A stretch of 64,000 nt of DNA, from the NCBI RefSeq assembly GCF_023702635.1, contig NZ_CP098455.1, positions 558,001-622,000 on the forward strand, in the 5' to 3' direction. The stretch comes from Spongiibacter taiwanensis. Lineage in GTDB: Bacteria; Pseudomonadota; Gammaproteobacteria; Pseudomonadales; Spongiibacteraceae. The notes under the pieces were generated by a model. The model saw nothing but the letters and a program-made list of their open reading frames with translations. It did not search any database and had not been told where the DNA came from. A program made the position numbers and the translations under genes. The stretch's first letter is position 1, and the number at the start of each line of letters is the position of its first letter. Positions 33,661-64,000 of the stretch are shown here, piece by piece.

Positions 33661-33679
33661 CAAATTAAGGTCAATACCA

Positions 33680-34708: not shown

Positions 34709-34743
34709 CCCGGTAATCCCTCCACTTGTTGCAAAATCCTATT

Positions 34744-39700: not shown

Positions 39701-41840
39701 ACTATGCTGCCTGGCCTGGCTTCGGCTGGGCGGAGAAGCCTCCAATTCAGAGCCCAGCAGGATATTTGGCGCAGCAATCTCCGTGGCAACCTTGGAGGCC
39801 ACAGTCGCTTACGCGCGACGCATCACACTGCCACCGCTCTATGCCGACATCATCAACATGGCCCGCCCTCACGCGGAGCTTTCCAGAAGACGATTACTCG
39901 ATCTAGTCTACAACCGGCCAGCCGACCGGTCAGTAGATCCAATCCTGGCAGACCGACCGCCACGGGAATTCCTCTCTCGCCCGTCGGCGCAGCCCAAACG
40001 CCAAACTGCCCAGTTCAAACGACTTCGCTCCTTCATACCTAAAGACGAAGAAAGCCGCGCGCCTGCTCGAGAGCAGCTGATTGACCACATCAGCACCTGG
40101 CGGAGAAACACCGAGGATTTATCCGAGGTAACCTACCTCCTCGCCCATTGGGCTGAAATTATGCTTGGACCACATGCGAACAAGCATACCGGCAAAACAC
40201 TCAAGCGAAATACCGTCAGGGATTATCTATTTGAGGCATGGTCAGCTTTAAGCGTTTCTTGCGAGAACGGATGCATTCTTGACTACGAAAGCGATGAGCT
40301 CACGGGCCTTCTCGAAGCTGCACTTCCCGGAAACCGCAAAACGGCAGACAGCCATGCCAAAGCGATTAATCGCCTCTTTTATGAGATGGGGCAGCACTAT
40401 GACCTGCCAAGTATTTCATTGAAGACAACTGGCAAAGATTCATGGGCAGGCATCGACGCGGGCGTGATCACCGAGACTGAGTACACCCTCATTGATTCCA
40501 TACTCTCTGCCTGGACGGAGTCTGGTCAGCTCCACGCGCATATTGGTGCAGGGATCGGCCAAATGAGAGTTGCCATGCAGCTGATGCGTGAAAAAGGCGC
40601 GCGAATATCAGAGGTGACTCGCTTACGCGACAGCGATCTCGCTCAATACGGTGACACTCAGGTTGTCCTTTTTCGACCCCATGCAGACCGGTCAATCAAA
40701 ACCGCAGCTGGCATACGAACGCTAGTGCTGAAAGAGAAAATCAGCCTGCCCCCCAACCCCAAACGGCGCGAGCATCTTTTTGATTACCTTCAGAGCGGGG
40801 AAAACGAACGGTTGCTACTCGCAGGCTTATACAGCGCCATCAAATTTGCAACCCACGACCAGAACGGGGTCCCGCATCGATTTCGGCATTCATCGCCTTC
40901 AGAGGCATTATTGGCGCTTCCTCCTGAGACTGAAGTGATAGAGAGAATCCGTCAGCTAACATACACGTCGGCCACCCTAGGCCACGCCAATGTGGGCGTC
41001 ACATTTCAGTACTATATTCACACTGCCCACTTCCATATCGCTAGGATGATCTCGGCAGCGACCGCGCCTCTAGACAACACCGTAATGGCCGCCCTCTTTA
41101 ATGAAACGCCTGGCTATCTCCGGAAGCGACAACAGCGTGTGCGGGAGGGATCCTCCATCGCCACTCAGTACGCATATGGCCTGCAAAGAGAGGACATCCA
41201 TGCCCAAGCTGAGACGCCCTCAATACCAGAGCCACCAAAACTATTGTCAGGTAGACTAAGTTTAAACGCGGGGAAATCAATAAAAACGACCACCTCGTGG
41301 CTCACCGCCTGTTCCAGAGGCGTCGATCCATTTGACGCCGCAGCGGGATTACCACTAACGCTTTCTGACTTACAAAAACTCGCGGAGGCACTGACAGACA
41401 CACAGTATTCTCTAGGTTGGCAATTAATTGATCCGAACCGTCTCCACAAAATAAATCCTCAGTACCTCCAGGATAAATCTGCTTTTCAGGAAACCTCCGC
41501 ACTTCACCGGTATATTCCACCAGGTTGGCTTGATCAGCAGATTGCGAGCATCCGCACTGAGCAAACTGACATCCCGAGGATGCTGCTCCGGCACCTTGGG
41601 GGATTACGTCTCCGCGCCCGCCAGCACGTGGTAATACGCTGCTCCGCCTCCGAACAACCCCGTCTCATTCAAGAATTTTCAAATATTGGATTTAAGATGA
41701 AGATGACTGGAGACAAAAAAGGCATCAAATTACTGCCCGACACTCAGGCACCTGAGGAAAAACTCGACCGAAACTTGGCGAGATTTGTCGTCCTGGCGGT
41801 CCTGACCCACGATCGATTTAGCCAAAATTCGGCCGCCTAG
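36741..41840 (+). CDS. Giant tyrosine site-specific recombinase (1699 aa)
   Basis: First gene of the island. The C-terminal region has the full tyrosine-recombinase set: R1288 (GARISEVTRL), K1320 (RSIKTAAG), H1379-x2-R1382 (HRFRH), H1415 (LGHANVGV) and nucleophile Y1424, nine residues after H1415. A second, degenerate copy of the fold lies near residues 560-745 (LRSHDLCLTYG, INQMRHLQST with Asn replacing His, LGHGFQGIVFGDYG). At 1699 aa it is four times longer than ordinary integrases. Start is GTG 36741; no well-spaced ribosome-binding site is visible. It may belong to the large recombinases of multi-gene integration modules such as GMT islands, but I cannot confirm this. Its position makes it the probable island integrase. 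Confidence 0.75.
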   Translation: MLISQKVLDLDLTKCRTASHGLAVASTIEHLLEDSAPLRSWLNSQDIEDLFEAASRIRTSASPALKTRRGTHPLANFKTLSPIYASLANDERLDYENNASAPLLDLARYVTLLSLFRSELSATTLVGTCNFVHQLPAQSVARTQLQSYRPQSLDAASINACVDRLRGDIAQKRVSGPRVDEWLVILESLLQIVHGTSRRPRGAQTGKGSQTKPTGTSRQSTEKRYRAAVALRGTPPGLENDEPPPAHIRFTHLAKSPDDDSEALEPELILYDEAAATDSENQARTFNQHSHHIRLNRAFAGMSSEAFTDPQARQARQAMKCLLALPALTPEREAAKLLWILTALYGRPFDELAPALIGGSDNEVASAPNGGIISIERQGDAVVVTIKHIIASSLPAAPLHQLASPVQTQFQLRCQLPDDVSLEDGWAFLASADDANIDAKIDQLLAAKDQIRSALRDAVERFTETRLRGSVLQAVFMQEYDLPLTQLLFSERVQGSLAALHYISFSDENLHTRWHRAIQTLYGEVMPAPSIDRISTRVGAPKSGIRPAVFDNAIAEMNRLQKSLRRLSPSNVAEHLGRRAQLACTALGLGAAHRFTFELGQLRSHDLCLTYGLVIFRDKPSDSAVYRRLAVIPSFALAYLFQYLSYLSEVVSGVIHAPSRIKKDAKSALNGARPLFFQVDGDEICDIDPAQWLRSYLPSGIDINQMRHLQSTLLRELSAPPLLVEAHLGHGFQGIVFGDYGLVSPKELATTLRPYLNQFFEDLAIQAPKSVKAPPHLWVSSKKLKALEEAEQESDTKLLLGQIQEEIKGGLLRSRRELITEVFAQHIPGYSPARLPQGTIVTENTALAIRDTLIARTADNLLTSYRVCREARIRLKSHRSDPGCKIALPAATAWDVRPPLSITRANMVAAGQLTALEQSLLDYIARGEPVDRYLIARCALMIWGTCHSFKKTETWLAALAATPLIKGADFQVIEIEGQARTLAGPALLCCLAWLRLGGEASNSEPSRIFGAAISVATLEATVAYARRITLPPLYADIINMARPHAELSRRRLLDLVYNRPADRSVDPILADRPPREFLSRPSAQPKRQTAQFKRLRSFIPKDEESRAPAREQLIDHISTWRRNTEDLSEVTYLLAHWAEIMLGPHANKHTGKTLKRNTVRDYLFEAWSALSVSCENGCILDYESDELTGLLEAALPGNRKTADSHAKAINRLFYEMGQHYDLPSISLKTTGKDSWAGIDAGVITETEYTLIDSILSAWTESGQLHAHIGAGIGQMRVAMQLMREKGARISEVTRLRDSDLAQYGDTQVVLFRPHADRSIKTAAGIRTLVLKEKISLPPNPKRREHLFDYLQSGENERLLLAGLYSAIKFATHDQNGVPHRFRHSSPSEALLALPPETEVIERIRQLTYTSATLGHANVGVTFQYYIHTAHFHIARMISAATAPLDNTVMAALFNETPGYLRKRQQRVREGSSIATQYAYGLQREDIHAQAETPSIPEPPKLLSGRLSLNAGKSIKTTTSWLTACSRGVDPFDAAAGLPLTLSDLQKLAEALTDTQYSLGWQLIDPNRLHKINPQYLQDKSAFQETSALHRYIPPGWLDQQIASIRTEQTDIPRMLLRHLGGLRLRARQHVVIRCSASEQPRLIQEFSNIGFKMKMTGDKKGIKLLPDTQAPEEKLDRNLARFVVLAVLTHDRFSQNSAA

Positions 41841-49429: not shown

Positions 49430-50236
49430 TCAACAGTCTAATTCTTCAAAGTTACAGGCTATTCCATCGAACCATCGGCGTAACTGCTCTACAGCAGGCC
49501 CCTGGAGTGCCACCCCCGCCTCAATTGACCGCTGCAACCCGTTCTCTGAAATATTGGCACTCCCCAGGTAACCCTTCATAGTATCGGTCGCCATTACCTT
49601 CGCATGAACGAGCGGCAACTGTCCGTTTGCCAGGGGCTTTGGAATAAGGATTTTTAGCGAACTTCCTTCGGCTTCCATCCAGTCGCAAAATGCTTTCAGG
49701 CCCGCCCGATCGCCATAATTGGGGCTTGGCCAGGTCATTACGGTAATAGATCTAGGGGCTGAGACATCTTTCCCTTTGTACACCTTCAGGTTGTTCACCC
49801 CATCAACACTCCAATATGGATTAACAATCAGAAGCTGCTCCTTCGCCTCAAACAACAATGCAGCCATGAAGCCTAGTAATGAACCCGCATTGGGCTGCAT
49901 CCAGCTCCATGGGGCATGAATGTTGTCCTCATACTCAGCGGGGGCTGTGGCCAATATTCTCTCTAACTCGGGATAATGGAGCCACATATCCATTTGCCCC
50001 ACCTGACTAGCTCTATAGGCCTGCCAGGGCACCGAGATAATTGCTGGGCTTGGCTTAACAGAAGACAGCCTTGCACTAAGTTCAGGGGGTAAGCAGCGGG
50101 TGTCTATAGAAACAGCCCCGCATAGCAGGGCATTGTTGATAGCGAGAGTCAGGTCATTGGCGATTTGCTTCGCCTGTCTAAATTGCATGCATCTGAAGCA
50201 CTGGAAAAGCGCCTCGTATAGCGCAGCGGAGTTCAC
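49430..50236 (-). CDS. drmC: DrmC-like phospholipase D-family protein of a DISARM-type system
   Basis: 268 aa, the usual DrmC length. A single HKD motif, H211-x-K213-x4-D218 (LVHAKVMATD), is followed by GYLGSANISENGLQ. The degenerate first half contains LLIVNPYWSVD. Members may act as nucleases. The GTG start overlaps the drmB stop (GTGA), so it is translationally coupled, and it is last in the operon, the place of drmC in DISARM loci. Family PLD is certain; DrmC identity rests on size and context. Confidence 0.75.
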   Translation of the reverse strand: MNSAALYEALFQCFRCMQFRQAKQIANDLTLAINNALLCGAVSIDTRCLPPELSARLSSVKPSPAIISVPWQAYRASQVGQMDMWLHYPELERILATAPAEYEDNIHAPWSWMQPNAGSLLGFMAALLFEAKEQLLIVNPYWSVDGVNNLKVYKGKDVSAPRSITVMTWPSPNYGDRAGLKAFCDWMEAEGSSLKILIPKPLANGQLPLVHAKVMATDTMKGYLGSANISENGLQRSIEAGVALQGPAVEQLRRWFDGIACNFEELDC

Positions 50237-52290
50237 TGCCAGAATCCTTCTGGTATCGTAATCATGGCGGATGGGTCCAGCGTGCCACCGTGTATATAGC
50301 TACGCGACAATCCATGGTTGAAAGTCTCGCAACCTAAAACCTCTTGAATACAGCCGCTGCAGGCCGCGCCGCGATCGGAGCAAATAGGATCGAAAACGCA
50401 CGTCAGCGCAAAATTGGATGCGTCGTTAAACCAGGCAAGCTGATGGTGACGGAAGAGTGTAAGCAGGCCGCCCGCTGTATAGTTTTGAACGCTTGTCACA
50501 TAGAGCAGTATCGACAGATCCATTGGCAGGAGATATTCCATCACCGACTTTTCATCGTAACCGGTATGAGGCTTGATCGTCGCAAGCAAGCTGTGGCTGA
50601 TGGAGTGGAGAAGATGGAATGGGGCGCTTTCCCTAAGCGGCCGGTCTTTTGTTGCCCCCAACACGTCTGGCGGCGACATGGATAGTGCCGGACAGTTCAG
50701 CAGCAAATAAGCTTTGGCTCTAACTTCGTCGTCAACCACATCACTACCTGGATTTTCCCAACCTGCCTGTTCTACACACCAGCGTAAAACGGCGCATGGG
50801 TCAAGCTTGATCTCAATGGCCTCAGTTTCCGCTGGCAGCGCATAAAACAGTTGCTTCCCTGCATAACGCGACGAGGCCACGTCTTGATATGGGCTTAGCA
50901 CGACTGGCGGTACACCATCCCCTTCGGGGGGCGATGATAGCTCTCTGGTGAATCCAAGGCTCGCCAACACGACATTGACCTGTGGATAATGCGAGACCTC
51001 TTTAACGTGAAAACGTTCCTTGAGCAGTGCTATCGAGTTATATGTATCGCTTCGTTCCTCGGGGCAAGATATCTGGTCTGCGTACCGCTTTGTTGTTTCT
51101 CGCTCTTTGAAATCCTGCGGAAGCAACACCGCCTCGACCGCTCTGCGGTTATGAACCAAGGTAGCGAGCAACTCATCGTTGTGAATGTATTCTTCCACGC
51201 CCGCAAAGACGCCCTGCGCGCGCTTCAACTCTCCCTCAAGCTCTGTGATCTTGTCCTTTGAAAGTTGCTGCATTGTTTGCAGCGTATCTTCAGGAAGACC
51301 CATTTGATCTAGCTGGGAAAGCACATTGCGTTGTTTGTTCAGCTCTTTGGTGATGCGTTCAATTTCTCCGTCGTCAGGGCCTGCCTTGCCGACAGAATCG
51401 CGTAGGTAGTTGATTAGGTCTTCCCCGCTGGCAAGGCCAAGCAACGCACTCGCAATACCCTGGCCGACATCTTTCCCCAGCGGAGTCAACGGATCATCAA
51501 TGCCACCTGCAAGAGCCATGGCATTGGCAACCATGCGCCCTGTTGATTCGTTCAAGCATAAATACTGAATGTTTTTTGGATACAGACGGTCTTTATTTGT
51601 AACCGGTGTCGCCCTCAGACTGGACTGGGCACTGTCTGGATAGAGCGACAAGCAGGACCGGCAGTCTGGTTGCAGCGAGTGAAATTGATCACCGTTATCC
51701 ATATCCACAAAATTACTTTGAAACACACCGCCGCCGGTTGCCTCGTACTTCAGGTTAGAGGATCGTCTTGCTCCACCTGGCGTCTGTAGCGGAATCATCA
51801 CCCCGCAACGGTGGATGGCAATCAGCTTAAGCTGCTTCATGTGGCCGTTACAGCCCGGGTAGCGGCAAGGGATATACGGCTTTCCGCCGGCTCTTCGGAT
51901 GCGGCGATGAGCTTCAGATCGCTTATCGGACTCATCCCGCGGGTTCAGGTGGTAGTCGAGTTTCTTGCAAACGCTGCAGGTCAAAAGCATCGGAAACGGG
52001 TCAACATACACACCGTCCGGCGATACTATTTTGATCTCGTCGTGATACTCGAGCGCGCGCTCCAAGGCTGGGTCAATGACGGCATTGGTCAGTTCACCCC
52101 ATTGCTTTATCACACGCGAAGCAACTGAGATGAGCTGCTGAGCATCAATTCGACTCGCATCCTCATCATTGTTTGAGACCCCTGCGACCTTTGCGTAGCT
52201 GTAGTTTTGAAGGCGGACAATATTGCCTGGCAGTAGCCCGTCGTAAAACAATTTGCTTTTATTAATACCCTCATCCAAAAAGCCAGCCAT
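50233..52290 (-). CDS. drmB: DrmB-like DUF1998 protein of a DISARM-type system
   Basis: 685 aa. The C-terminal DUF1998 domain has HSISHSLLATIKPHTGYDEKS, the DLSILLYVTSVQNYTAGGL helix and a zinc-type cluster CSDRGAACSGCIQEVLGCETFNHGLSRS. Two further Cys pairs lie N-terminally (LLTCSVCKKL, CRYPGCNGH), and a coiled coil lies near residues 300-370. DrmB binds the DrmA helicase, and the DrmAB complex loads on DNA with a 5' overhang. Start and drmA stop overlap as TAATG. Confidence 0.78.
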   Translation of the reverse strand: MAGFLDEGINKSKLFYDGLLPGNIVRLQNYSYAKVAGVSNNDEDASRIDAQQLISVASRVIKQWGELTNAVIDPALERALEYHDEIKIVSPDGVYVDPFPMLLTCSVCKKLDYHLNPRDESDKRSEAHRRIRRAGGKPYIPCRYPGCNGHMKQLKLIAIHRCGVMIPLQTPGGARRSSNLKYEATGGGVFQSNFVDMDNGDQFHSLQPDCRSCLSLYPDSAQSSLRATPVTNKDRLYPKNIQYLCLNESTGRMVANAMALAGGIDDPLTPLGKDVGQGIASALLGLASGEDLINYLRDSVGKAGPDDGEIERITKELNKQRNVLSQLDQMGLPEDTLQTMQQLSKDKITELEGELKRAQGVFAGVEEYIHNDELLATLVHNRRAVEAVLLPQDFKERETTKRYADQISCPEERSDTYNSIALLKERFHVKEVSHYPQVNVVLASLGFTRELSSPPEGDGVPPVVLSPYQDVASSRYAGKQLFYALPAETEAIEIKLDPCAVLRWCVEQAGWENPGSDVVDDEVRAKAYLLLNCPALSMSPPDVLGATKDRPLRESAPFHLLHSISHSLLATIKPHTGYDEKSVMEYLLPMDLSILLYVTSVQNYTAGGLLTLFRHHQLAWFNDASNFALTCVFDPICSDRGAACSGCIQEVLGCETFNHGLSRSYIHGGTLDPSAMITIPEGFWQ

Positions 52291-55200
52291 TAGCGATCTC
52301 CCAGTGCTTCTAAAAGGTCTTCCGAGATAGATTCATTTACGCGAACTGAGACGCTGATTTCAATATCCCGCAAACTGCGCATCGGCCGATTACCCAATAT
52401 GCGCTCCAGTGCTTCTGCAGGGCGCGCAGTAGCAAGCTGGCTGGGCAGATTCTCCAACCCATGCAGAACCCGTGTAATCGCCTTATCCAGCTGCATTTCA
52501 TATTTTGCCAGCACACGATGATCGAAGAACGCGCGGGCAAAATCTGGAACACCAAGAGACTCTTTCAGCTGCGTGCGAAGACCATCCGCGGCGCCATTGG
52601 TGGTATCCCGAAGCGCGTCACGCAGGTTTCCAGCGCTCTTCAGAATTCCCTCACCACACCCTGGGTGATTGACCATCCAGTTCAGGATTGCGGCGTTAAC
52701 CACCCCCGGCAGGGTCTTTTGGAGCAGGTTGGGAGCAAAGCGGTTAACCGGCACGCTCTCCACCATTCTATCCATGAAGAGGTGATAATCCTGGAAGTCC
52801 AAAAAGACATTCGTTTGAAACAGGGTCTTGCTGTTCAGGACGTTTAGAACGACGCCCGGCTCAACCCGGCCTGCGCGCGCCGAAGCCTGAAGGTATTCTG
52901 ATATGGACTTAGGCCAGCCCGCCATAATCATAAAGTTCAGGCGATGCATGTCGACGCCATGCGAAACAACGCTCGTGGCGACTACTTGGCGGAATGGATC
53001 ATCCGGCCGCTTGCGCTCAATGTGGTGGATGATTCCTTGGATATGGTCCAGCGTTGAGTTGCCGTCCAAATGTTCGTAGACACGCCCCATTCCCTCTTGA
53101 AACTCATCGAGCGCCCGGTGAATGTCCGTGTTGTCGTTCATTGAGTTGCTGTATAGCAAACAGGTATTCAGGTAGGTCTCGATGTAATCGAGCAGCACTG
53201 GCGCTTTGCTAACATCGACGCCGAGAGTGTCACAGACTGACTTCGGGTTAGCAGTAAGCTCTGCTCTCCATTCGTCAATCATTGTGAGAAACTTGGTGCT
53301 CGCCAACGCAGAGCTACGCTGCATGATACGGCCACTGCCAATCGGCAGTATCCCGGCGTACCAGCGTTGAATTAACGGCTTGCCATCCTCACCCAGTTCG
53401 ACCCGCGAATAAAATGACTCTCCCCGCTTCATCCCTGGCGAAGGAAAGCGGCGGGCATGCTTTTGATACAGGTGGTGAATATGGTCTTCATACCCTTTGA
53501 TGGTAGCCGTGGCCGACAACACCTTGGGTTCACGGCATCCCTGCGCCATCTGGAGCGCCCGCATTGTGGACTCATAGTGTGCGTCAAAGTTACCGGTGTT
53601 TTCTTTGAGCAGGTGAAGCTCATCCTGAAGGATAAAGGAGATGCCCGCTTTCAGGCCGGGTGGTGATGGCACCACTCTCACGGCCGACGTTTTGGTGTTG
53701 TTAGGACAGGAGTCCGATTGGTATTCCCCGTCGCTATCGCGGGTGATGGATCGATGCTCACACTTCGTTGTCGAGCTGAAACCGTGAACCGGGCAGAAAT
53801 ACGGCGCGCTGCCTAAGAGCGCCTTGAAGCGACGGTTGTGGCCTATAACCGATAGTTTGTCGATGGTACCTACCAGCACGGTTGGGAGATAGCGGTAAAC
53901 CTCTTCATCCGACACATAGATACCCAGCTCCCCGCGCGTACCCTCGCCATACGTACCCTCTGGCATTTCAGTGTTCGACCAGCATTCAGGGTTCTCGCAG
54001 ACATGCTTCAGCCTGGCGTCCGGAATATCGGTGACGACCTTGATACTGTCCTGGTGATTGCAGTAGGGGCAGTCACTGATGAATTGCAGCTTCTCTCTTG
54101 AGCGCGCATCCAGCTTGGGCAAGAAATATTGCTCAGCGTTGTTGTAGTTGGAGCTGATACCGCTGGGCGTACCACCCCCGGTAAAATACCCAATAGTGAA
54201 AGGGTGCCCCGCGAGGGTGGCTCCCTCCCTGACCTTGATACGGTTGGCTTGGGCAACGGCATAGGAAAGGCGCTGAAACTGCTGCACGGACAGCATGCGC
54301 AGTGGGAACTTCATCCACGCCGTGGGTCCGTATAGGCGCTGGTACATCCGCTCGTAGAACATGGCCATAACGATGATGCCCATATAGGCTTCGGTTTTAC
54401 CGCCGCCGGTGGCAAACCAGAGTACCTCGGCTGTCGAGAGATGATCCGTTAACTCCGACTCTGGGCTGCAGCGCTCATACACCGCCCTGACCTGCGTCAG
54501 AATGAACCCTAATTGGAACAGCCGCCACTGATCGATGGGTTTGCCTTGATGCTTAAAGCTCTCCAACATCGACTCATTCATCCACTTGAACGCTTGCAAG
54601 AGCTTGGGATGGGTCTCCAGCAGTGATACGCCATCGTCGATATTGGCCTTTTCTGCAACCAATAGCGCGCGCTCAGCCATGGCGACTTCTGCTTCGGACT
54701 CTTTGCCGGCGGCCAACATGCCGTCAATCTGCTTTTGCCACTCGAGCAAATAGGCATCCATTGCGGCAACCAATCCTTTGAGGGTTGGTACCGGATTCGT
54801 GGACAGATGAGCGAAGGATGGCTCTGAGGACATGCCCAACTCAGCGGGGCTCGGGTTCTTGATTCTGCTCAGCCCTGACACCGGGATGGCGTTGGTGCCA
54901 TAGTGATTGTCGGCAATCTGCTCGATGGACGTGGTGATGCCATACCCTGGCACCCCGTCGTTTTCCATATACCGGTAATCCTTCGGCGCCAGCTTGTGGG
55001 GCAAAAGGTGGCCTTGCCCGGCGACCAGCTTGGTATTAAACCGGACATCAAACAGGAAGGCGCTGGAATCCAGGCCAAACGCTCTGGCCTCATCCCGCGT
55101 GGTGATGTTTTCCAGATAGATTTCGACAAGATGGGCGTTTGGCCGATCGCTCAGGCTGACTGGAGCTTTGCGGATGCGGGCCCGCAGGCGCACATTGTGC

Positions 55201-55880
55201 CGCATCAGGTCAGTTTCGCGCTCAAAGATATCGCGGGCGATAGTCTGGTTGAATTCGTCCTGATCGGCGATGGCATAGTCGCCACCTTCTGGCCAGTTGA
55301 ACACAAACTTGGCCGAGCCTTTGTCCGTCAGCTCAGGCACCTTGAATATCCGCGGGTCTGTCAGGCACATGTCCTGAATGTCACTCAGGCCTTTAACGAT
55401 ACTGTTGGCGGCCGGAGGGGTAACCCATTGATTAAGGCCGGTGTTGATATTCATGCTCAGTGGAACGTCTTCAAACTGGACGGTGAGGCGGCGATAACTC
55501 AACACAATAGACTGGGTTGCTTTCGGGTCTCCGCCCTCTTTCTTGAGTCGCGAGCGCTGAATGGCGATATCTGGGATCTGCCGAAAACAGATATCGAATT
55601 GACCGCTTACCCGCGCTTCAACGTCACCACTCTCCGTTGGCTCAACAAGCAGCACCATGCCCATAGCGTTGGGCGCCTGCGCGCCCTCAAAGTCAGGCTT
55701 CGGCGCGTAGCCTATCGATCCTGCCAGTGCCATCTGATATGGCGCGAACTCGTTGTAGACCTTACCCGGCCAGGCAATCACATCCGTTTCCTTGTCGAAA
55801 AGACTTAGCGAAAACGCGTCGATAAGCTTGCGATTGATTGCTGATTTCTCAGCGAAACTGAGGGGCGGGGTTGTAGGCAT
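52290..55880 (-). CDS. drmA: DrmA-like superfamily-2 helicase of a DISARM-type system
   Basis: 1196 aa. Motif I is FATGGGKTEAYMGI (K495). The DEAD-type motif is written QDELHLL (D753-H756), SATATIKGYEDHI is motif III, and the C-terminal helicase half has VVATSVVSHGVDMHRLNF and EYLQASARAGR (motif VI). A zinc-like insertion (CPYCNHQDSI, CENPECW; CPVHGFSSTTKCEHRS, CPNNTK) lies between the motifs, as in DUF1998-partner helicases. It should translocate on DNA with DrmB. It starts 2 bp after the stop of the 916-aa gene, so the operon is very tight. Confidence 0.8.
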   Translation of the reverse strand: MPTTPPLSFAEKSAINRKLIDAFSLSLFDKETDVIAWPGKVYNEFAPYQMALAGSIGYAPKPDFEGAQAPNAMGMVLLVEPTESGDVEARVSGQFDICFRQIPDIAIQRSRLKKEGGDPKATQSIVLSYRRLTVQFEDVPLSMNINTGLNQWVTPPAANSIVKGLSDIQDMCLTDPRIFKVPELTDKGSAKFVFNWPEGGDYAIADQDEFNQTIARDIFERETDLMRHNVRLRARIRKAPVSLSDRPNAHLVEIYLENITTRDEARAFGLDSSAFLFDVRFNTKLVAGQGHLLPHKLAPKDYRYMENDGVPGYGITTSIEQIADNHYGTNAIPVSGLSRIKNPSPAELGMSSEPSFAHLSTNPVPTLKGLVAAMDAYLLEWQKQIDGMLAAGKESEAEVAMAERALLVAEKANIDDGVSLLETHPKLLQAFKWMNESMLESFKHQGKPIDQWRLFQLGFILTQVRAVYERCSPESELTDHLSTAEVLWFATGGGKTEAYMGIIVMAMFYERMYQRLYGPTAWMKFPLRMLSVQQFQRLSYAVAQANRIKVREGATLAGHPFTIGYFTGGGTPSGISSNYNNAEQYFLPKLDARSREKLQFISDCPYCNHQDSIKVVTDIPDARLKHVCENPECWSNTEMPEGTYGEGTRGELGIYVSDEEVYRYLPTVLVGTIDKLSVIGHNRRFKALLGSAPYFCPVHGFSSTTKCEHRSITRDSDGEYQSDSCPNNTKTSAVRVVPSPPGLKAGISFILQDELHLLKENTGNFDAHYESTMRALQMAQGCREPKVLSATATIKGYEDHIHHLYQKHARRFPSPGMKRGESFYSRVELGEDGKPLIQRWYAGILPIGSGRIMQRSSALASTKFLTMIDEWRAELTANPKSVCDTLGVDVSKAPVLLDYIETYLNTCLLYSNSMNDNTDIHRALDEFQEGMGRVYEHLDGNSTLDHIQGIIHHIERKRPDDPFRQVVATSVVSHGVDMHRLNFMIMAGWPKSISEYLQASARAGRVEPGVVLNVLNSKTLFQTNVFLDFQDYHLFMDRMVESVPVNRFAPNLLQKTLPGVVNAAILNWMVNHPGCGEGILKSAGNLRDALRDTTNGAADGLRTQLKESLGVPDFARAFFDHRVLAKYEMQLDKAITRVLHGLENLPSQLATARPAEALERILGNRPMRSLRDIEISVSVRVNESISEDLLEALGDR

Positions 55881-55882
55881 GG

Positions 55883-58633
55883 TTACCGTTTCCTTGTGGG
55901 CAGGTGTCGCCCGAAATGATGTATGACCACTTTCTTATCTTGATCGTCCCAGTGAAAGTGGGTGCGAAAACACAGCTCTGGGTCTCGACTCGACCCTATT
56001 CTCAAGTGGCGACCGATATCAACGTTCTTCCCGTTATAACGCACGCTGTACGCGGAGGCATGCTGCCCTTGCGTAACCGCCGACATGCCGCCGGCATAGG
56101 TAATACCGGCGCGGCGAGAGGCTAGCTCGCAGTCAGAGGGATGTTTGTCACCCATAAACATGTCGAAGTACTCATTTTCCAGCAGCGACAGGCACTTCTC
56201 TGCCTTGTCGAGATTGCCGTAGTTTGAGTCCTCGGCAGACCTCACCGCCCGCGGTGTCACGACAACACGGTCACTGATTTCAGCATGGTCCTTTAACAGC
56301 CCGGAAAGCGTCCGGACAGTATCTTTTGGGGCATGCGGAAACTGGATGATTTTCTCTACGCCTTCAAGTCGAACCAGGTCGGATAACACCTCCTGGTTCA
56401 AAACCTTGGCCGCTGAGCCAGTTATCTCTCTGTCCGGAACCGCGGCATTGGCGATAAGGCGCCGCAAATCTTTGCCGAGGCCTCTGTGGATATTGCGGAT
56501 ATGCTGGATAGCCTTGGCAATCGGCTCAACCTCGGACGGCTTGGTGGCCACCCCCGCTATTTTGGCAACGGCAAACACATGCTCGGTGGTGCTTCTCACG
56601 CCATCACTGGGGCCAATGCCCGTGTGACGCGCCCAACCCTGGACTGCCGGCAACCCGATTTTGATACCTTCGGCGGTGAGAGCCTTGTGGAACGCATCGG
56701 TGCTGCCGGTCTTGTCTATCGCCAGGCTGACATAATCTTCCCACCGCGCGGAGAACTGGCGAACGAGGTCGTAGTCCGCCGTGTTATCGGATGTGTAGCT
56801 GATCAGAGTCTCAAGCAGCGCCTGGCAATCATCGCTCCCGTCATCGGTAAGCAAGAGGGTGTCATGCGTCGTAATGTCTTCGGCAGGGATTCGTTTGAGC
56901 TTGTCTTTGCCATCCTCATCCCGAACGACGTACACGCGCTGGCGGCGGTGGAATGAGTGTTTGCGCCCGGCATCGGTCAATACGACAACATCGTCATCGT
57001 CTGGCTCCCGGGCGCCGGATGGCGCCGGCTCGGCAATGGGTGCCATGAGGATGTCGAACCACGCGTTATCCTTGGGCAGTGTTATGTCGAGTTCGATACG
57101 GTGTTTGTATTGGCCCGAGCAGTCAGACCACACTTCCACCGGCATCCCAGTTTCAGCGGGATTGATATAGCGAAACGGACTGGGTTTAAGGTCCCACCAC
57201 GACGGCGAATCGGCATCGCCATTGAGATAAGCCTTCCAGCGCTGACCGTGTTTGATTGCCCAGTACGACTCGGATTCATAGCAGAGCAGGTCAACGTTAT
57301 TTGCCAGCGTGAAAGCCCAATAGCCTTGTAGCCATAAGGGGCCAACAAGGAGGAGTTTGTCGATGGGTGCTGTGCTTTTCCGGTAAAGGTCTCGACTGCT
57401 ATTCACCCCGACAACGGACAGCGAACCGTCCGAGATTGACACGTTGTATTGGGCGATGAGCCAGGTTTGAAGAAGACTTGCTGAGCGTTCGCTCCCGACA
57501 CCAATTGCAATGCGGGTACCGGTCTTAAGGTTTTCCTTTATCCACTTATCAACCGCCTGCTGTTTACCAACGCCCCCCTCTTCCAGCATTTCCAATAGCT
57601 GAGACGCCTGCTGCGTGAACAGGTACAGCAGCTCCTGATGCTCGCCGCTCGAAAGTGACACCCGACTCAGGTCGTCCAGCCAATCACTGACCGGCTTGAC
57701 GGGATAGGGCCCTCCACGACGGTTGGCGTTTTGGTGATTCTCATGGAATGACAGGGGAACGGCCAACGAGCGCAGTGCACTGGTGATCTGGTCAATAGCC
57801 TTGATAGCCTCGCGGCCCGAGGGGCTGAACTTCACGGCCTCTTTAACCTGTCGGCCCTGGTCGCAAAGCAGCGTCAAGTGTTCGTTGAACGTGTTGTCTT
57901 TGGCGACGAGGATTCGCGGCCTCAAGTTTGTTTGGGTCTTTTCCTTGAAGAGCCCTCGCCCTACCGGCTGCCTCCATAGATTGAACGGCCTGCGAGCAAT
58001 GTCCTGCTCAGTGTGAAAGTCACCCATCGCCGTCAGAATGACCACGGGGACGCTTGGGAAGTAGGAGTTCAGCGTTTCCAGTAACGTGCCGACGTCATCT
58101 CTTCGCCCGTAGGGTGTCGCATCGACAACCATGGCGAAAGGATGGCAATTGCCGACGAGATCCTCGCAAAGCTGTAACGTGTTCGCGCTGGATTGCGCAA
58201 GCAGTGTCCTTAGCACGCGATCGGGATTTAGGAGTGGAACAATGCCATCTCGATGACTGGCATTGGCGCGAATCATATCCACGCCAAGCTCCGGGTTGGT
58301 ACGAAGACCAACAAACTGCTCGCGGCGGTTGGTCCAGACCACCAGGTCGGGACGCTCATACATATTGATACGATTAAACCACCGGGACTGCAGAACCCCG
58401 CTGTGAGCCTCCATGCGCAGCGCATGCAGATAACAAAGCAAGTGGCCTAAATCAGCGGCCCCCGCAACAGGCGCCGATAACCAAACCGACTGACCGTGCC
58501 TTAGCCTGTAGCCCAGCGCCGCGGCGGCGCTACCCAGCACATCGCCGCACGCCAGAGTCTCGATGTAGTTAAAGGCGGGAATCGCAAAGCGATACCCTTG
58601 CGCCTTTTCAATCCACTGAGGCTGTTGAGCCAT
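55883..58633 (-). CDS. Unknown defence-operon protein (916 aa), possible DrmE-like component
   Basis: Starts at ATG 58633, inside the last codons of the ATPase gene (26-bp overlap), and ends 2 bp before drmA. Three regions: residues 1-230 alpha/beta (LACGDVLGSAAAALGYRL; FAMVVDATPYGRRDD; VPVVILTAMGDFHTEQD); a middle region with IAIGVGSERSASLLQTWL; and a C-terminal domain ending RHLRIGSSRDPELCFRTHF-HWDDQDKKVVIHHFGRHL. No helicase, methylase or Walker motif is visible. Class II DISARM has an unassigned protein, DrmE, in the same operon; this could be a distant equivalent, but I cannot show it. Confidence 0.55.
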   Translation of the reverse strand: MAQQPQWIEKAQGYRFAIPAFNYIETLACGDVLGSAAAALGYRLRHGQSVWLSAPVAGAADLGHLLCYLHALRMEAHSGVLQSRWFNRINMYERPDLVVWTNRREQFVGLRTNPELGVDMIRANASHRDGIVPLLNPDRVLRTLLAQSSANTLQLCEDLVGNCHPFAMVVDATPYGRRDDVGTLLETLNSYFPSVPVVILTAMGDFHTEQDIARRPFNLWRQPVGRGLFKEKTQTNLRPRILVAKDNTFNEHLTLLCDQGRQVKEAVKFSPSGREAIKAIDQITSALRSLAVPLSFHENHQNANRRGGPYPVKPVSDWLDDLSRVSLSSGEHQELLYLFTQQASQLLEMLEEGGVGKQQAVDKWIKENLKTGTRIAIGVGSERSASLLQTWLIAQYNVSISDGSLSVVGVNSSRDLYRKSTAPIDKLLLVGPLWLQGYWAFTLANNVDLLCYESESYWAIKHGQRWKAYLNGDADSPSWWDLKPSPFRYINPAETGMPVEVWSDCSGQYKHRIELDITLPKDNAWFDILMAPIAEPAPSGAREPDDDDVVVLTDAGRKHSFHRRQRVYVVRDEDGKDKLKRIPAEDITTHDTLLLTDDGSDDCQALLETLISYTSDNTADYDLVRQFSARWEDYVSLAIDKTGSTDAFHKALTAEGIKIGLPAVQGWARHTGIGPSDGVRSTTEHVFAVAKIAGVATKPSEVEPIAKAIQHIRNIHRGLGKDLRRLIANAAVPDREITGSAAKVLNQEVLSDLVRLEGVEKIIQFPHAPKDTVRTLSGLLKDHAEISDRVVVTPRAVRSAEDSNYGNLDKAEKCLSLLENEYFDMFMGDKHPSDCELASRRAGITYAGGMSAVTQGQHASAYSVRYNGKNVDIGRHLRIGSSRDPELCFRTHFHWDDQDKKVVIHHFGRHLPTRKR

Positions 58634-61600
58634 GGACCATCTCCACCATGTGCTTGATTTCAGGGGCAACGCTGTAAACCAGTTTGCGCTGCTGACCCTG
58701 CATCGATTCTGCTTTGAGCAGGTCCATGGAGAGCAGCCACTTCAGGTAGCCGTCGATTTCAGACTCGGGGGTATCCGCCAACGAATCCACGCAGATGAGG
58801 TTGATGCCGAACCCGTCACGGTCAAAACCACTGCCATCCTGAGACAGCTGAACCAGCAAAGGCTCAACCCAGGGCAGGCTGAATACGCCCGCCATTTTCA
58901 GGAAGCTTCGGGAATTGCGCTCATCGGTTTCCGGCAGCGGCTGGAAATTGCGACCGAAATCGCGGATCGAGGTTGCATTCTTTTTGCTGCGGCGAAGCGT
59001 CACGACGGTATTCAGGGCGCAGTGCCAACCGCCGGTGCTGATTGCCGCCTCTTCAACCGCCGGGGCAGAGTCGACCATGTCGATCTGTTCCAGCAGCAAA
59101 TTGATTGCGCAGCGCTTCCAGCGGGCCAAGTGGATAACGGCCTGGGCGTCTTCGCGACCCGCCGTAAACTCGGCGGCCTGCAGCCACTCCCAGTAAACAA
59201 CGGGGCCAACCAGGAAGATAATTCGCACGGGATACTTCGACGCCTTCTGCGCGCTGCCAATGCTGTTTGAGGTATCCAAAAGACCCAGCAGCAAGGCAAT
59301 GCCGACATCTTCAGCCACATCGATAACCAGCATCTGCGGCTTCTTCTCGGCGTTGGCAAACAACACGCCCATATTCTTGTCGAGGTCGGCGGGCGATTTG
59401 TACTTCGCGCTGCTGACACTGAACATCTGATAGGCCTTGTGAGAGGCCCCGTCTTTGAAGAAGGCCTGCTCGGTTTCAAAGAGCGAGGGCATCGTCAGGG
59501 CGACATCCTTAATACCCTGCGCATCCGAACCTACAACCATCGTCGAGGTGAAGTGCTTTGGCTGGATGAAGCCACGCTTCTGCGAATCGATTTCACTCAC
59601 CATGCCGGTGATGGTTTTCTCATCACGGAAGGTAATGGGGCGCGGGTAGCTTTTCGCATCGGAGCGGCTGAACGAGCGGTAGTCCATCGGGTCGATTTGA
59701 TCCATATCGATGATGGCTTGTTCCAGCTTGTTCTGGACGTCAAGCGTGCGCGACTCGGACAGCAGCTTTCTCACGCTGGAGTTTCGCAGTTCAAAGCGGC
59801 CCGATTCCAGTTCGAGCATGACGCCAAGACCAACCAGTTCGTTTAGGAAGTGTTTGAACTGGCGTTCTGAATAGGAGCCAAAGGTTTTCGGCGCCCAAAT
59901 CGTGGCCAGGTCTTTTGCCTCAGCAACCGAGAAGCTCTGCGCACCGGTGCCTTCGTTGAGAATCGAGTAAACCATGACCAGATAACGTTTATCGAGGTTC
60001 AGGGTCATCTCGAAGCGTTCGCGGATCGTGTCCAGAACCTCTGGGACGTTCAATGCGGACTGCACGTTCTCGCGGGTGATGATGGTCTGCCCTACCGCAC
60101 CATTGGCGTTGCGGCCCATGGAAATCAGCAGTTGGTTACAGAGTATCTGGATCAGGCCCGGGTGACGGTTTGTTGAAGCGAGAATCGCATTCACCACATC
60201 GGTCGACTCAAAGCGGTAACCTGCCGCCTGGATGGGCTCAACCACCAAATGCGTTGCTTCACGCGATGGCATGATGCTGACCTGAATGGAGCTACCCAAC
60301 TGGCTCAGCGGATAGTTCGGGCTGTCTTCAAAGCGCTTCACGTTTGCCAGACCGCCGATAATCATCTTGAAGCGACCTTGCACACCCTGGCCCCGCATCA
60401 GCGAACGAATCGCACGGAAGATGGGGAAGTCATGAGCGAAGTCGATCTTCAGAATGGGGTCGATCTCATCGAACAGGGCGATGATGTGAACATCCTTTCT
60501 GGAGGTGATCGTATCGGTCACGGCCTTCTCAAGCAGCTCGGAGGTGCGCTCTTTCACCGGATCGGCGATAAGACCATCGATCAGCATGAAGTCGTACAAA
60601 CGACCCCACACCTCGCGCTTGGCCAGATCCAGCGACTCTTTGCGCTGCGGATCATCGCGGCACAGTTCACGGTCGAGCGGGCTGTAATAGGCATAGTGAT
60701 GCTGGCGAGGGTTGTGATACGCACGCTGCACCGCTTCCAGAATGGTTGATTTACCCAGCTGGCGACCGCCATAGACAATGGCCGCGCCACTGCGCATGTC
60801 GAGCAGACTGGTAATTTCGTGCTCGCGACCGAACAGCATTTCCGGTTCCGGCGGACTTGCCGTCTTACCGACATACGGGTTGTAGTAGGTGTACGGCGCG
60901 GCTTGCCACAGGAACTTCTCAGTATCAGTCGTCCCCAGTTCGTCGTTATCCACGGACGCCAGGAAGACGAGCGATACCGGGTCAATCAGGAAGATGGTGC
61001 GCTGAGCATCTTTACAGTAGCGGGCGAATTCATCGCGGTGCTCCGGCGTAATCGGAGTAACCGAAATCAGAATACAGTTGCCGGCGCTCGTACTGCGGTT
61101 CTGCAACTGCTCACGCAGGTTGTCCACCGTCCAGTTCTGGTAGGCAATGATGACCGTCCAGTACTGCCCGTCTCGGCGCGGCCCAAAGTACGGGAAAGGA
61201 CGCCGAGACTCCTGCGCTTTAAGCTGCAAATAAGTGAAGCTGGTGCCGTGAGCCGTGTCGTGCTTGATACTGTTTTGCACTTTGGCGTTATAGGTTGCCT
61301 CGGTCGGGGCTATCCCTACTGCTGCCAGAATACCAGCCATCTGCTCGAACAGCGTCTGGTTGAGCTTGGCAGCGGGCTTCTTGCCAAGCAGTTCATCCAT
61401 CACCTGCAGAGGACGTTTAAGCTGTGTCGCTTTGGTAATCGACAGGCCCATCTTTGCGCCGCCTTCATTCGCCTCGGTGAGCACGTCGCGGCGCAGGCCT
61501 TTGCCCTGCATGAAACGGAAGATGCCGGGTTGTTTTGTGATGAATTGAGACAGTACCGGCAACTCTTTGATGTCGGGGGCGCGCATGCGCTCGCCGCGCT

Positions 61601-64000
61601 CGATGTGGCGATCGAGGTCTGCGAGCATTTCCTGCACTACCGGCAGGTTGTCTTCAGACAGAGCGCGCTCAATGCTTTCCACCCAGGAATCCGGCACCGC
61701 ATCGGCAACTTGTGACCGCAGTTTCTCTACGCCTTCGATGTAGCGATTCTCGAGCTTTTCTTTGAGGGAGGCTGTTTTCGCGCGCAGTTTGCGGTCGACG
61801 CTATCGATCTCGGCCTCAACGTCATCCATGGGGCGGATGGTGTCGAAGCTTTCAATCTCATCTCGAGCCTCTTCAAGCTGGGTAATGAAATTCTGTGGAC
61901 CTTGTTCGCTGAGCAGACCACTGTGCGCGGCCGTCTCGACCATGGACTCGAGGTTAATGCAGCGATTGAGTAATTTCTTTTTCTCGCTCTCAAAGGCACG
62001 CTTTGTGGCTGCACCATCAATCGATACCCCGCCCAGTTCAAGGCGCTGACGGATCACCTCGGCCATGTGAACGCGGCCGGCGGCGAGAGCGGACTCATAG
62101 GCATGGCGCGTCTCAACCTGAACACCCACGTTGCCGATCATCCAGCGAACGGCCTCAGAGGTTTCATCGCTACGATGTCCTGTCTCCAAAAACATTTTTT
62201 GGCGAGGGTGGTAATACCAACCCTTTACCATGTCGTAAGGCAGGCGAGGAACTTCGCGGTTGATCACGCGGAGCAGGCTAGACAACGTCGCCGCGAGGAA
62301 GCCCATACCGGCAGCGGCACCCGCGCTCGATGCGGCCTTTGATCCTTCAGCAAAGAAGGTGATGGTGTTTTCAAGGCGCGTAATGAATTTCTTCGCGTAC
62401 TCTTCGGATTTGTCGCTGTGAACTGGGCGGTTAACTGCCAGCCATTCACGGCACATTGACGTCAGTGCAGACATCTTGGCAAAAAACCGCGTCATACCGA
62501 TCTTGGTGATGTCCTCACCTTGATACATATTGACGTGTTGCAGCAGTTCGACAAGCAGGCGCTGAGCGTCTTCTGGCGTTTGGTACTGACCAACGAACTG
62601 CTCAATGAAGGTGTACTCTTCGCGCTTGTTCAAGATGAGAGCGTCGGTCACGCGACCAAACAAGCCTGATTCAAGACTCAGTGACTGCGCCTTGCGGTAG
62701 GGTGCATAGCCTCGCGTTGCGGTGACAATTTTCTTGCACCACTCTTCCACCTGACCGGTTTCGAACTTCTGCGCCTCTTGGGCGGCGCCCGCTTTGGCCT
62801 GGCGAAGCAGTGACAGTGTCATTTTCTCGCCGCGGCGCGCCATTTCTGCCGTCTCAGAAATCAGGCTGGCCGTGTTTTTATCAAACATGGTCTCAGGCAG
62901 CGAGGCTAACAGAAGATGTCCCGTGGACTCGGTACCGCCAAAAACGGTCGGTTGGAATGCCGCTGCAAAGACTAGGTAAGGGAGCATCTCTCCGCCACGC
63001 TGTTTTGACCAGCTCTCAATATCGGCCGGGGTAATGCCGTTCAGTGTGCGCTGCGATTTAGAAAAGACCGCGCGATCGTCAAAAGTGTTCACGCCGTAGT
63101 ACGCTGCTTTGAAAAGGTGCCACGGCAAAAAATCTGTGCTTAGCTGGGTCTCTTCGAGCGAATACGATAGCTGCGCAGCGTAGTTAACCTGTTGCAGTAC
63201 GAGGCTTTCATTAAACAGATCGTTGATTTTCTCGCCGGGTATGAAGGCATCCTGCTCAAGTGCATCAAGGCATTCCTGCCCAATCACAGTATGAGCTCTG
63301 GTGGTAACCTGTTTGACCTCTTCTTTAACGATCTCTTGCTCCGAGCCAAGCTCTTCTTCAGCGACCCTTTCTAGCTCTGGCTCTGGTACTGGTACTGGTT
63401 CACGAGTCTCTGCCTGATCAGGAGTTGCCGTATCAGAATTGGCAGGGCTGCTTTCCTGTGTTTCCTTGGTGACAAACGTCTCACGCTCGAGGGCCCGCTC
63501 GGCATCTTCGCTAGGTGGTGTTAGCTCGCCCTCAGGTTCTGCTTCCTGCCCATCGCCGGAACCGTCGGGAACAAACTCAGGAAGCAGAGCCATGATTTCA
63601 AGGCCACGTTCTCTGGGATAGGCAGTGGCGGTGAGGGCCTTATCTTCCTTGCTCATATCACCCAAGTCAGGGTAGCAAAGCTCATAAATATCCAGAGCAA
63701 GATCGCTAAGCTGGGCTTCCAACGCAACCTTTTCACTAGTGGCGGCAGCAATCGCGTTTTTGTGATCGCGCTTATCTCGAATATTTGATGGTTCCTCTTT
63801 CGCCCCAAGTTCCTCCAGTTTCTCAGTCAGCTTGGATAACTCGTCCTCCAGCTCGACAACGCGTTCGATACTTGGTTCGGCGTCGACGACCACAGCGCGC
63901 AGCGAGTCGACAACAGTCTTCGGAGTTAGGTCCAGGCCCCCACACGCAGACCAAATAACCCAATCTATCGCCAGGGTTGCACCATCCTCGCCAGAAAAAT
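58608..64000 (-). CDS. Giant AAA/STAND-type ATPase of the defence operon, 5' end outside window
   Basis: At least 1796 codons; the frame is open past GTG 63893 to the window edge (SGEDGATLAIDWVIWSACGG), so the start lies outside. The N-terminal part has a charged coiled coil (VVELEDELSKLTEKLEELG) and an acidic linker. A long helical middle follows. The P-loop is FGREHEITSLL...VYGGRQLGKSTILEA, about residue 1047 from the GTG, and Walker B is HIIALFDEIDPIL about 95 residues later. C-terminal winged-helix-like and sensor regions come last. The architecture fits a signal-sensing STAND or ORC-like ATPase. It is first visible gene of the operon and overlaps the 916-aa gene, so it is most likely a component of the same system. 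Confidence 0.65.
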   Translation of the reverse strand, partial: FSGEDGATLAIDWVIWSACGGLDLTPKTVVDSLRAVVVDAEPSIERVVELEDELSKLTEKLEELGAKEEPSNIRDKRDHKNAIAAATSEKVALEAQLSDLALDIYELCYPDLGDMSKEDKALTATAYPRERGLEIMALLPEFVPDGSGDGQEAEPEGELTPPSEDAERALERETFVTKETQESSPANSDTATPDQAETREPVPVPEPELERVAEEELGSEQEIVKEEVKQVTTRAHTVIGQECLDALEQDAFIPGEKINDLFNESLVLQQVNYAAQLSYSLEETQLSTDFLPWHLFKAAYYGVNTFDDRAVFSKSQRTLNGITPADIESWSKQRGGEMLPYLVFAAAFQPTVFGGTESTGHLLLASLPETMFDKNTASLISETAEMARRGEKMTLSLLRQAKAGAAQEAQKFETGQVEEWCKKIVTATRGYAPYRKAQSLSLESGLFGRVTDALILNKREEYTFIEQFVGQYQTPEDAQRLLVELLQHVNMYQGEDITKIGMTRFFAKMSALTSMCREWLAVNRPVHSDKSEEYAKKFITRLENTITFFAEGSKAASSAGAAAGMGFLAATLSSLLRVINREVPRLPYDMVKGWYYHPRQKMFLETGHRSDETSEAVRWMIGNVGVQVETRHAYESALAAGRVHMAEVIRQRLELGGVSIDGAATKRAFESEKKKLLNRCINLESMVETAAHSGLLSEQGPQNFITQLEEARDEIESFDTIRPMDDVEAEIDSVDRKLRAKTASLKEKLENRYIEGVEKLRSQVADAVPDSWVESIERALSEDNLPVVQEMLADLDRHIERGERMRAPDIKELPVLSQFITKQPGIFRFMQGKGLRRDVLTEANEGGAKMGLSITKATQLKRPLQVMDELLGKKPAAKLNQTLFEQMAGILAAVGIAPTEATYNAKVQNSIKHDTAHGTSFTYLQLKAQESRRPFPYFGPRRDGQYWTVIIAYQNWTVDNLREQLQNRSTSAGNCILISVTPITPEHRDEFARYCKDAQRTIFLIDPVSLVFLASVDNDELGTTDTEKFLWQAAPYTYYNPYVGKTASPPEPEMLFGREHEITSLLDMRSGAAIVYGGRQLGKSTILEAVQRAYHNPRQHHYAYYSPLDRELCRDDPQRKESLDLAKREVWGRLYDFMLIDGLIADPVKERTSELLEKAVTDTITSRKDVHIIALFDEIDPILKIDFAHDFPIFRAIRSLMRGQGVQGRFKMIIGGLANVKRFEDSPNYPLSQLGSSIQVSIMPSREATHLVVEPIQAAGYRFESTDVVNAILASTNRHPGLIQILCNQLLISMGRNANGAVGQTIITRENVQSALNVPEVLDTIRERFEMTLNLDKRYLVMVYSILNEGTGAQSFSVAEAKDLATIWAPKTFGSYSERQFKHFLNELVGLGVMLELESGRFELRNSSVRKLLSESRTLDVQNKLEQAIIDMDQIDPMDYRSFSRSDAKSYPRPITFRDEKTITGMVSEIDSQKRGFIQPKHFTSTMVVGSDAQGIKDVALTMPSLFETEQAFFKDGASHKAYQMFSVSSAKYKSPADLDKNMGVLFANAEKKPQMLVIDVAEDVGIALLLGLLDTSNSIGSAQKASKYPVRIIFLVGPVVYWEWLQAAEFTAGREDAQAVIHLARWKRCAINLLLEQIDMVDSAPAVEEAAISTGGWHCALNTVVTLRRSKKNATSIRDFGRNFQPLPETDERNSRSFLKMAGVFSLPWVEPLLVQLSQDGSGFDRDGFGINLICVDSLADTPESEIDGYLKWLLSMDLLKAESMQGQQRKLVYSVAPEIKHMVEMVHGSTASVD

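Follow-up and report, generated by a model that had tools for sequence, protein, structure and literature searches.

A conserved DISARM-like operon with a giant ATPase and no methylase gene of its own in Spongiibacter taiwanensis

A stretch of 64,000 nucleotides of the Spongiibacter taiwanensis chromosome (contig NZ_CP098455.1, positions 558,001 to 622,000; referred to here as the window, in whose coordinates positions are given) ends in an operon that joins a core of DISARM-type genes to the gene for a giant ATPase. We read this operon as a conserved, methylase-free variant of the DISARM defence systems and assign to this reading, which includes the ATPase-switch mechanism proposed below and a predicted antiviral function, a probability of about 0.5. 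Gene order, alignments and trees show ATPase, DrmE, DrmA and DrmB, with DrmC as an optional member, to be one inherited operon with intact helicase and ATP-binding motifs. The operon looks like a variant that is stable and new to the literature, rather than like a broken system, and is filed here as a new DISARM variant outside class 1 and class 2.

All five genes lie on the minus strand with open frames and would be transcribed in the order ATPase, drmE-like, drmA, drmB, drmC. As a first-pass annotation of the window had described, they overlap (drmC and drmB by 4 nucleotides, drmB and drmA by 1, the ATPase gene with drmE-like) or are, in the case of drmE-like and drmA, separated by 2 nucleotides. 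The window cuts the ATPase gene, of which it holds the part from 58608 to 64000, i.e. the C-terminal 1795 amino acids (aa); the extension past position 64000 that the first-pass annotation had proposed completes the frame to 2138 aa, with a start at 65024 outside the window.

A scan of a collection of species genomes with an alignment of DrmA, by means of two peptide patterns derived from this clade (67 stretches), found 11 loci. In seven of them, of which four are from Pseudomonas, two from Paraburkholderia and one from Collimonas, DrmA has 44–46% identity; in the other four, where the window ATPase and DrmE have no match, it has 25–26%. The order ATPase–DrmE–DrmA–DrmB is kept in all nine operons found with a close DrmA, i.e. 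those of the window, a Cupriavidus oxalaticus plasmid and the seven genomes, so that the co-occurrence by which the first-pass annotation had wished to check the unit is seen for these four genes in eight operons besides its own; DrmC was detected in three of the nine (L010, L027 and the window). The DrmA tree has 19 rows, taken from the window, 10 of the 11 scan loci and 8 of 85 plasmid DrmA records (L031, with a helicase frame of 1756 aa, was left out, and C. oxalaticus is represented by an N-terminal piece alone). In it, the nine ATPase-bearing operons form a single group with a support of 100/100, at a wide distance from DISARM of class 1 and class 2, and one change suffices to account for the presence of the ATPase, some outgroup branches being long. 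The trees of DrmA, ATPase (16 rows, leaving out L006–L008, L014–L016, L018 and L023) and DrmE (9 rows, leaving out L023) largely agree in showing the same Pseudomonas and Burkholderiales groups, which, together with the constant gene order, bears out that the genes are inherited as a unit. Outside the operons, the flanking DNA compared shows no match between loci apart from a single block common to L024 and the window, so that the shared unit ends with these genes. In C. oxalaticus, a transposase gene, IS3-type by eye, sits within drmA (L010:22659-23834).

Does the ATPase–DrmE pair really act together with DrmAB(C), or is it a complete defence module that just travels beside a DrmAB(C) module? 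In favour of two modules, Burkholderia arboris carries the pair without a match to DrmA, DrmB or DrmC in a stretch of 32 kb (its absence among the plasmid DrmA records holds among the matches listed, 25 of the 85 records lying outside these), and plasmids of several phyla carry related giant ATPases whose partners are different or not evident (19 records, 13 neighbourhoods). Nevertheless, all nine close DrmA proteins are accompanied by the pair, the genes overlap or adjoin, and the trees are largely congruent. The B. arboris ATPase itself nests inside the clade as sister to the Burkholderiales operons, which makes loss of DrmABC the simpler reading of this locus. We thus consider two co-travelling systems rather unlikely.

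The core of the operon has the features expected of DISARM, i.e. a DISARM-branch DrmA, a separate drmB following drmA and a DrmC of the phospholipase D (PLD) type. The product of drmA (52290 to 55880; 1196 aa) is a superfamily 2 (SF2) helicase of the YprA/DISARM branch that matches the PADLOC model of DrmA with an E value of 3.4e-98 and NCBIfam DrmAS with 314 bits, under the cut-off of 950. Its Walker A motif lies at 54393 to 54410 (minus strand), DExH, SAT and motif VI are also found, and the helicase motifs are present in all four DrmA proteins checked. A profile of eight DrmA sequences aligns to Serratia DrmA (7s9v) with 248 bits over profile positions 314–1066; the alignment stops at residue 1203 of 7s9v, and the methylation-sensing valine V1296 of the pivot arm lies beyond it. 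DrmB (50233 to 52290, minus strand; 685 aa, with a C-terminal cysteine cluster), which was aligned for eight members, is more distant: it gives an E value of 9.8e-26 with PADLOC DrmB, 55 bits with NCBIfam DrmB_fam (under the cut-off of 240), an E value of only 0.0016 against 7s9v, and no Pfam family at E ≤ 0.05. As PF09369 (DUF1998/MZB) found nothing in the S. taiwanensis genome although this DrmB is present, the DrmB of this branch lies beyond the reach of that model. DrmC (49430 to 50236, minus strand; 268 aa), a PLD-family nuclease, scores 34.6 bits with PLDc_2 (cut-off 27) and an E value of 1.9e-8 with PADLOC DrmC, and has a single copy of the motif HxK(x4)D..GSxN at about 49553 to 49606; a motif of this HKD type occurs in all three DrmC proteins read (window, L010, L027). 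By sequence comparison, the homology of DrmA, DrmB and DrmC is clear despite their divergence, all three staying below the curated NCBIfam cut-offs, and the DISARM-type core seen by the first-pass annotation is upheld by the PADLOC, 7s9v and PLDc_2 matches and the helicase motifs.

The protein encoded between ATPase and DrmA (55883 to 58633, minus strand; 916 aa from an ATG, or 928 aa with the TTG at 58669, further upstream, as start codon) had been regarded as unknown, and in this the first-pass annotation does not hold: the protein belongs to the DrmE family, a known component of class 2 DISARM. Pfam DrmE_C (PF24957) matches residues 565–742 of the 928-aa form (56444 to 56977) with 37.8 bits, over the cut-off of 27, as it does in all four clade proteins scanned (36.7 to 42.4 in the three from Pseudomonas). 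NCBIfam DrmE_fam (NF038316) matches all eight clade members at E ≤ 0.01, the best at 4e-26, with 62.8, 64.6 and 66.2 bits in the three members viewed, under the model cut-off of 80. The first-pass annotation had named as evidence against novelty that both upstream proteins be already described DISARM components; this came true for the 916-aa protein and not for the ATPase. The predicted structure of the DrmE-like protein, of medium confidence (mean predicted local distance difference test score (pLDDT) 62), retrieves SF2 helicases from the PDB with Foldseek (E 2.7e-7, low TM-scores), and by eye the alignment has no GKT motif where Walker A would fall. Thus, the N-terminal two-thirds probably adopt a degenerate SF2-helicase-like fold, and we infer from model and alignment that the protein may serve as a degenerate helicase-like adaptor.

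At its C-terminus, this DrmE carries a further domain of about 130 aa (residues 795–926; 55892 to 56287, minus strand), which matches the PADLOC candidate HEC-07 with an E value of 5.1e-28 and is shared with shorter HEC-07-like proteins (L051–L056); a histidine, an arginine and a histidine are invariant in all 16 aligned sequences. The class 2 DrmE of L029 has no PADLOC match at all. Pfam returned two weak, unrelated matches for eight fragments of the domain. A RelE/YafQ-like RNase, an idea prompted by a resemblance of the three residues to YafQ/YoeB, was dropped when profile comparison with YafQ or ParE families by hhalign gave probabilities of 0.35% and 1.84%, the YafQ–ParE positive control reaching 78%. 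Full-length relatives of the protein seem rare: 8 of 369 genomes matched the DrmE alignment, seven of them in the C-terminal domain only, and the sole full-length match was the genome of the window itself.

What this operon lacks is a methylase. Class 2 (type II) DISARM comprises DrmA, DrmB, DrmC, DrmE and DrmMII, and class 1 (type I) DrmA, DrmB, DrmC, DrmD and DrmMI; since PADLOC requires one or other of the pairs DrmD + DrmMI and DrmE + DrmMII (PMC9252829), the operon fits neither class. With class 1 it has the order DrmA–DrmB–DrmC in common, and differs from it in that DrmD is not adjacent (DrmD was not searched for genome-wide) and the genome has no match to DrmMI. Its likeness to class 2 lies in a DrmE directly upstream of DrmA–DrmB(–DrmC) with DrmE_C over the Pfam cut-off; against this stand the missing DrmMII-type (PF00145) gene, the addition of a 2138-aa ATPase, the extra HEC-07-type domain of DrmE and a DrmA that lies far away on the tree.

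The statement of the first-pass annotation that neither a methyltransferase nor DrmD is visible is borne out: beside the operon there is no methylase and no intact DrmD. Between the ATPase gene and the integrase and tRNA-Arg of the surrounding island there is no gene of the size of a methylase or of DrmD, and the only traces of an SNF2-type helicase up to the integrase are N-terminal fragments resembling HmaA. The complete chromosome (3,714,182 bases) has no match to the cytosine-5 methylase family PF00145, which was detected in 10 of 14 control genomes, and none to DrmMI (PDLC02643), which scores 1223 bits in the class 1 control genome of L030. With the same tools, DrmMII and DrmE are detected in L029, and DrmD together with DrmMI in L030, so that the absence is not due to blind tools. 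In L029, the class 2 DISARM of a deltaproteobacterial metagenome-assembled genome, a NERD-helicase-like gene lies between drmE and drmA (L029:7078-8850). Among the seven relatives, PF00145 is absent from two and in the other five occurs only on contigs other than that of the operon; DrmMI is found in none of five and gives weak partial matches in two (61 and 45 bits), one of these on the operon's own contig at a distance of about 103 kb. A crude motif scan of open reading frames (ORFs) downstream (seven relatives, 3.6–7.9 kb) and upstream (six, 2.7–12.5 kb, without L026, whose contig ends within 0.7 kb) revealed no methylase motif except three stray PCQ/PCE triplets.

Alternatively, methylation might act in trans, the operon reading marks set by an unlinked host methylase such as the N6 methylase of a type I system. 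The ATPase activity of Serratia DrmAB is indeed reported to depend on DNA methylation (PMC9142583), and the S. taiwanensis genome has four N6_Mtase matches at three loci, as well as Eco57I at three places. All of these, however, lie more than 0.9 Mb from the operon, and PF00145 is absent from three of the eight operon-bearing genomes searched, so that no cytosine-5 methylase of this family is common to all. With DrmMI as the only N6 family covered in the relatives, we rate methylation in trans as unlikely.

On the DrmA tree, the nearest neighbours of the clade are two actinobacterial, plasmid-borne DISARM-like operons, one from Rubrobacter tropicus and one from Streptomyces cellulosae (L118 and L119; fork 97/97, with a long Streptomyces branch). 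They too have a gene of similar size before DrmA (a weak DrmE_fam match of 24 bits, in L119 only), as well as a DrmB and a PLD protein, but differ in having a DUF1156-type methyltransferase-like gene in the neighbourhood (NF042963; 57 and 90 bits, cut-off 1000) and no giant-ATPase match in the stretch read. Judging from these neighbourhoods, the ATPase of the clade seems to stand where the relatives have a methylase, with no polarity of change implied.

The ATPase itself is a protein that no PADLOC model (window part and L024 protein) and no NCBIfam family matches, which upholds for the ATPase the view of the first-pass annotation that it is not among the genes of described DISARM loci. Its assignment to the STAND/AAA type is tentative: it has weak support by sequence, as the Pfam families AAA_16, AAA_22 and nSTAND1 all match below their cut-offs, but agrees with conserved motifs and, at low TM-scores, with structural comparison. 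The AAA/STAND-type core (residues 1396–1720; 59865 to 60839, minus strand) contains the P-loop VYGGRQLGKS (about 60744 to 60770) and the Walker B motif FDEID, and GGRQLGK and DEID are invariant in the aligned ATPases of all eight clade members. The model of residues 1150–2138 (mean pLDDT 66) is matched by Foldseek to the Pyrococcus ATPase 2qen, ORC2 and plant NLR resistosomes, with low TM-scores. The 1200 or so residues before the core show no known domain by Pfam. A PD-(D/E)xK (Mrr-like) domain before the P-loop is not claimed, Pfam being empty for three of four fragments; in the fourth, from the window, a single sub-cut-off match to a viral glycoprotein is taken as chance.

Could this protein be the effector, i.e. 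an NLR-like abortive killer or a DNA-degrading machine, with DrmAB–DrmE as the sensor? Such a role would suit a STAND/NLR-like core preceded by some 1200 aa without a known domain, and DrmC went undetected in six of the nine operons, which would otherwise lack an effector. Yet, apart from the AAA core, Pfam detects nothing catalytic in the ATPase, and the same goes for the domain that precedes the P-loop in all four fragments scanned, and we think it quite unlikely that the ATPase kills or degrades; a switch is the role we favour for it.

Relatives of the ATPase with 24–30% identity are found in 19 plasmid records, including those of Streptomyces, Azospirillum, Methylocystis, Salinibacter and Brasilonema. 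In the 13 neighbourhoods examined (two without annotation and read as ORFs) their partners differ, Brasilonema having a DrmD-like PLD–SNF2 helicase. These giant ATPases (about 1900–3400 aa; L011, L012, L013, L015, L017–L021 and others) occur on plasmids of several phyla, and a P-loop of the type GGR[QR]LGK[ST] was read by script in 11 of 12 further giant ATPases, two of which (L009, L010) belong to the clade. The family perhaps marks several undescribed defence operons. Within the class of S. taiwanensis the protein is rare, with matches in 4 of 274 genomes, one being its own and the other three weak and confined to the AAA core.

How might such a system work? For Serratia, DrmAB has been reported to load on DNA with 5′ overhangs, to be restrained by a trigger loop and to be slowed by methylated DNA, and DrmC to be dispensable for DISARM (PMC9142583). 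Since the DrmA motifs are intact, DNA-driven translocation is likely here as well, and, as no methylase is present, a second check has to come from elsewhere, ATPase and DrmE-like protein being the only further proteins always present. We propose that DrmAB would engage free-ended or single-stranded phage DNA, as Serratia DrmAB does, and that the DrmE-like protein, with its P-loop-less helicase-like fold and HEC-07-type C-terminus, could couple DrmAB to the STAND/ORC-like ATPase. The latter would be a switch driven by ATP, which intact host DNA leaves in its off state, and loading of the complex on invading DNA would cause it to free the activity of DrmAB plus DrmC or a host nuclease. If so, self/non-self discrimination would rest on DNA structure and the ATPase switch rather than on marking of DNA. 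A bolder version, which we put forward tentatively and hold to be somewhat doubtful, is that immunity of the DISARM lineage can do without any DNA modification, an NLR/ORC-like ATPase acting via a dead-helicase DrmE having replaced methylation as the safeguard against autoimmunity, and that the same ATPase family may be an exchangeable switch in other, unnamed plasmid defence operons.

Several points weigh against the operon being a methylase-free DISARM variant controlled by an ATPase switch. Its support is genomic, and both complex formation and anti-phage activity are predictions. The constant gene order holds for close DrmA proteins only, because the scan patterns came from the clade itself, and the pair in B. 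arboris may act alone. Both structure models are middling, and the Foldseek TM-scores are low. The absence of a methylase in S. taiwanensis rests on PF00145 and DrmMI, with PF01555 and DUF1156 not searched genome-wide, and that of N6 families in the seven relatives on DrmMI alone; the N6_Mtase genes of S. taiwanensis could mark its DNA.

ARMADA, BRIGADE, TALON, Druantia and Dpd have a YprA-family helicase core as well and are set apart by the separate drmB gene of the window operon, which is the DISARM arrangement according to PMC12458937; the BrxHII/PglX pair is missing from the ORFs of the operon and those upstream. In the DISARM-like clade many classes are still uncharacterised (Bell et al. 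2025, PMC12458937, figure 1 legend), and the accessible parts of that paper describe no giant ATPase and do not use the word DrmE in the main text. Shield includes ShdA, a protein with an RmuC domain, in DISARM-like operons of Pseudomonas (PMC10270631); as RmuC (PF02646) was not found (E ≤ 0.05) in any of the five proteins of the window operon or in seven proteins from a subset of the ORFs of the Pseudomonas loci, the DISARM-like operon of Shield is probably a different one. Among the matches listed in our literature search, in which most subscription papers were out of reach, the present operon is not described.

Hma consists of a helicase, an m5C methylase and an ATPase (PMC8565338). S. taiwanensis differs in having no PF00145 methylase, and its ATPase matches no PADLOC model, hence none for HmaC. 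There is a likeness in that two overlapping minus-strand ORFs directly upstream of the ATPase gene, outside the window (L002:5021-5428 and L002:5425-5691, i.e. 65021 to 65691), match N-terminal stretches of the model for HmaA, an SNF2 helicase of 1176 positions, at 1–44 (E 2.5e-10) and 133–214 (E 2.2e-4). The two ORFs are probably what remains, in truncated form, of an adjacent helicase gene. As tblastn with both found no match in L022–L032 or the plasmid loci (the close seven loci being covered for only 0.4–0.7 kb upstream of the ATPase), they seem not to belong to the conserved unit.

Beyond this pair follow small ORFs and the gene for a protein of 311 aa that matches HD/YhaM weakly, and then a tyrosine integrase and tRNA-Arg(acg); the operon is thus situated in a tRNA-associated genomic island. 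On its other side, a protein of 1699 aa (36741 to 41840) shows a tyrosine-recombinase-like motif by eye and is possibly a large integrase of the island. A metE/DUF1852-like block (33090 to 35223; names by eye) recurs with about 75% DNA identity in the downstream flank of the Pseudomonas locus L024, which perhaps reflects a shared insertion neighbourhood.

Other helicases of the YprA family act in DNA repair (PMC12458937), and the operon might similarly serve repair or the maintenance of an element rather than defence. We regard this as very improbable in view of the DISARM-branch helicase, the relatives of DrmE and DrmC, the island with its integrase at tRNA-Arg, and the defence-type genes that adjoin the operon in two relatives, OLD-like in L023 and ABC-3C/Cap4-like in L028. 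Phages do not seem to carry it: neither DrmA nor ATPase has a match in 50,697 phage records, and scans of IMG/VR with the DrmA, ATPase and DrmE alignments found none (all of these scans using two peptide patterns each). The function that we predict is antiviral.

Overall, the operon bears on the question how DISARM spares its own cell, for which published work points to both DNA structure and methylation (PMC9142583). A stable DISARM branch without a methylase of its own, and with three of eight searched hosts devoid of PF00145, is a natural experiment that separates the one from the other. The interplay of DrmE with DrmAB was left to future studies in the same work (PMC9142583), and the present operon suggests what kind of role DrmE might have. 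In addition, the finding draws attention to giant ATPases, encoded on plasmids and in genomic islands, that form a family to which neither PADLOC nor NCBIfam has given a name.

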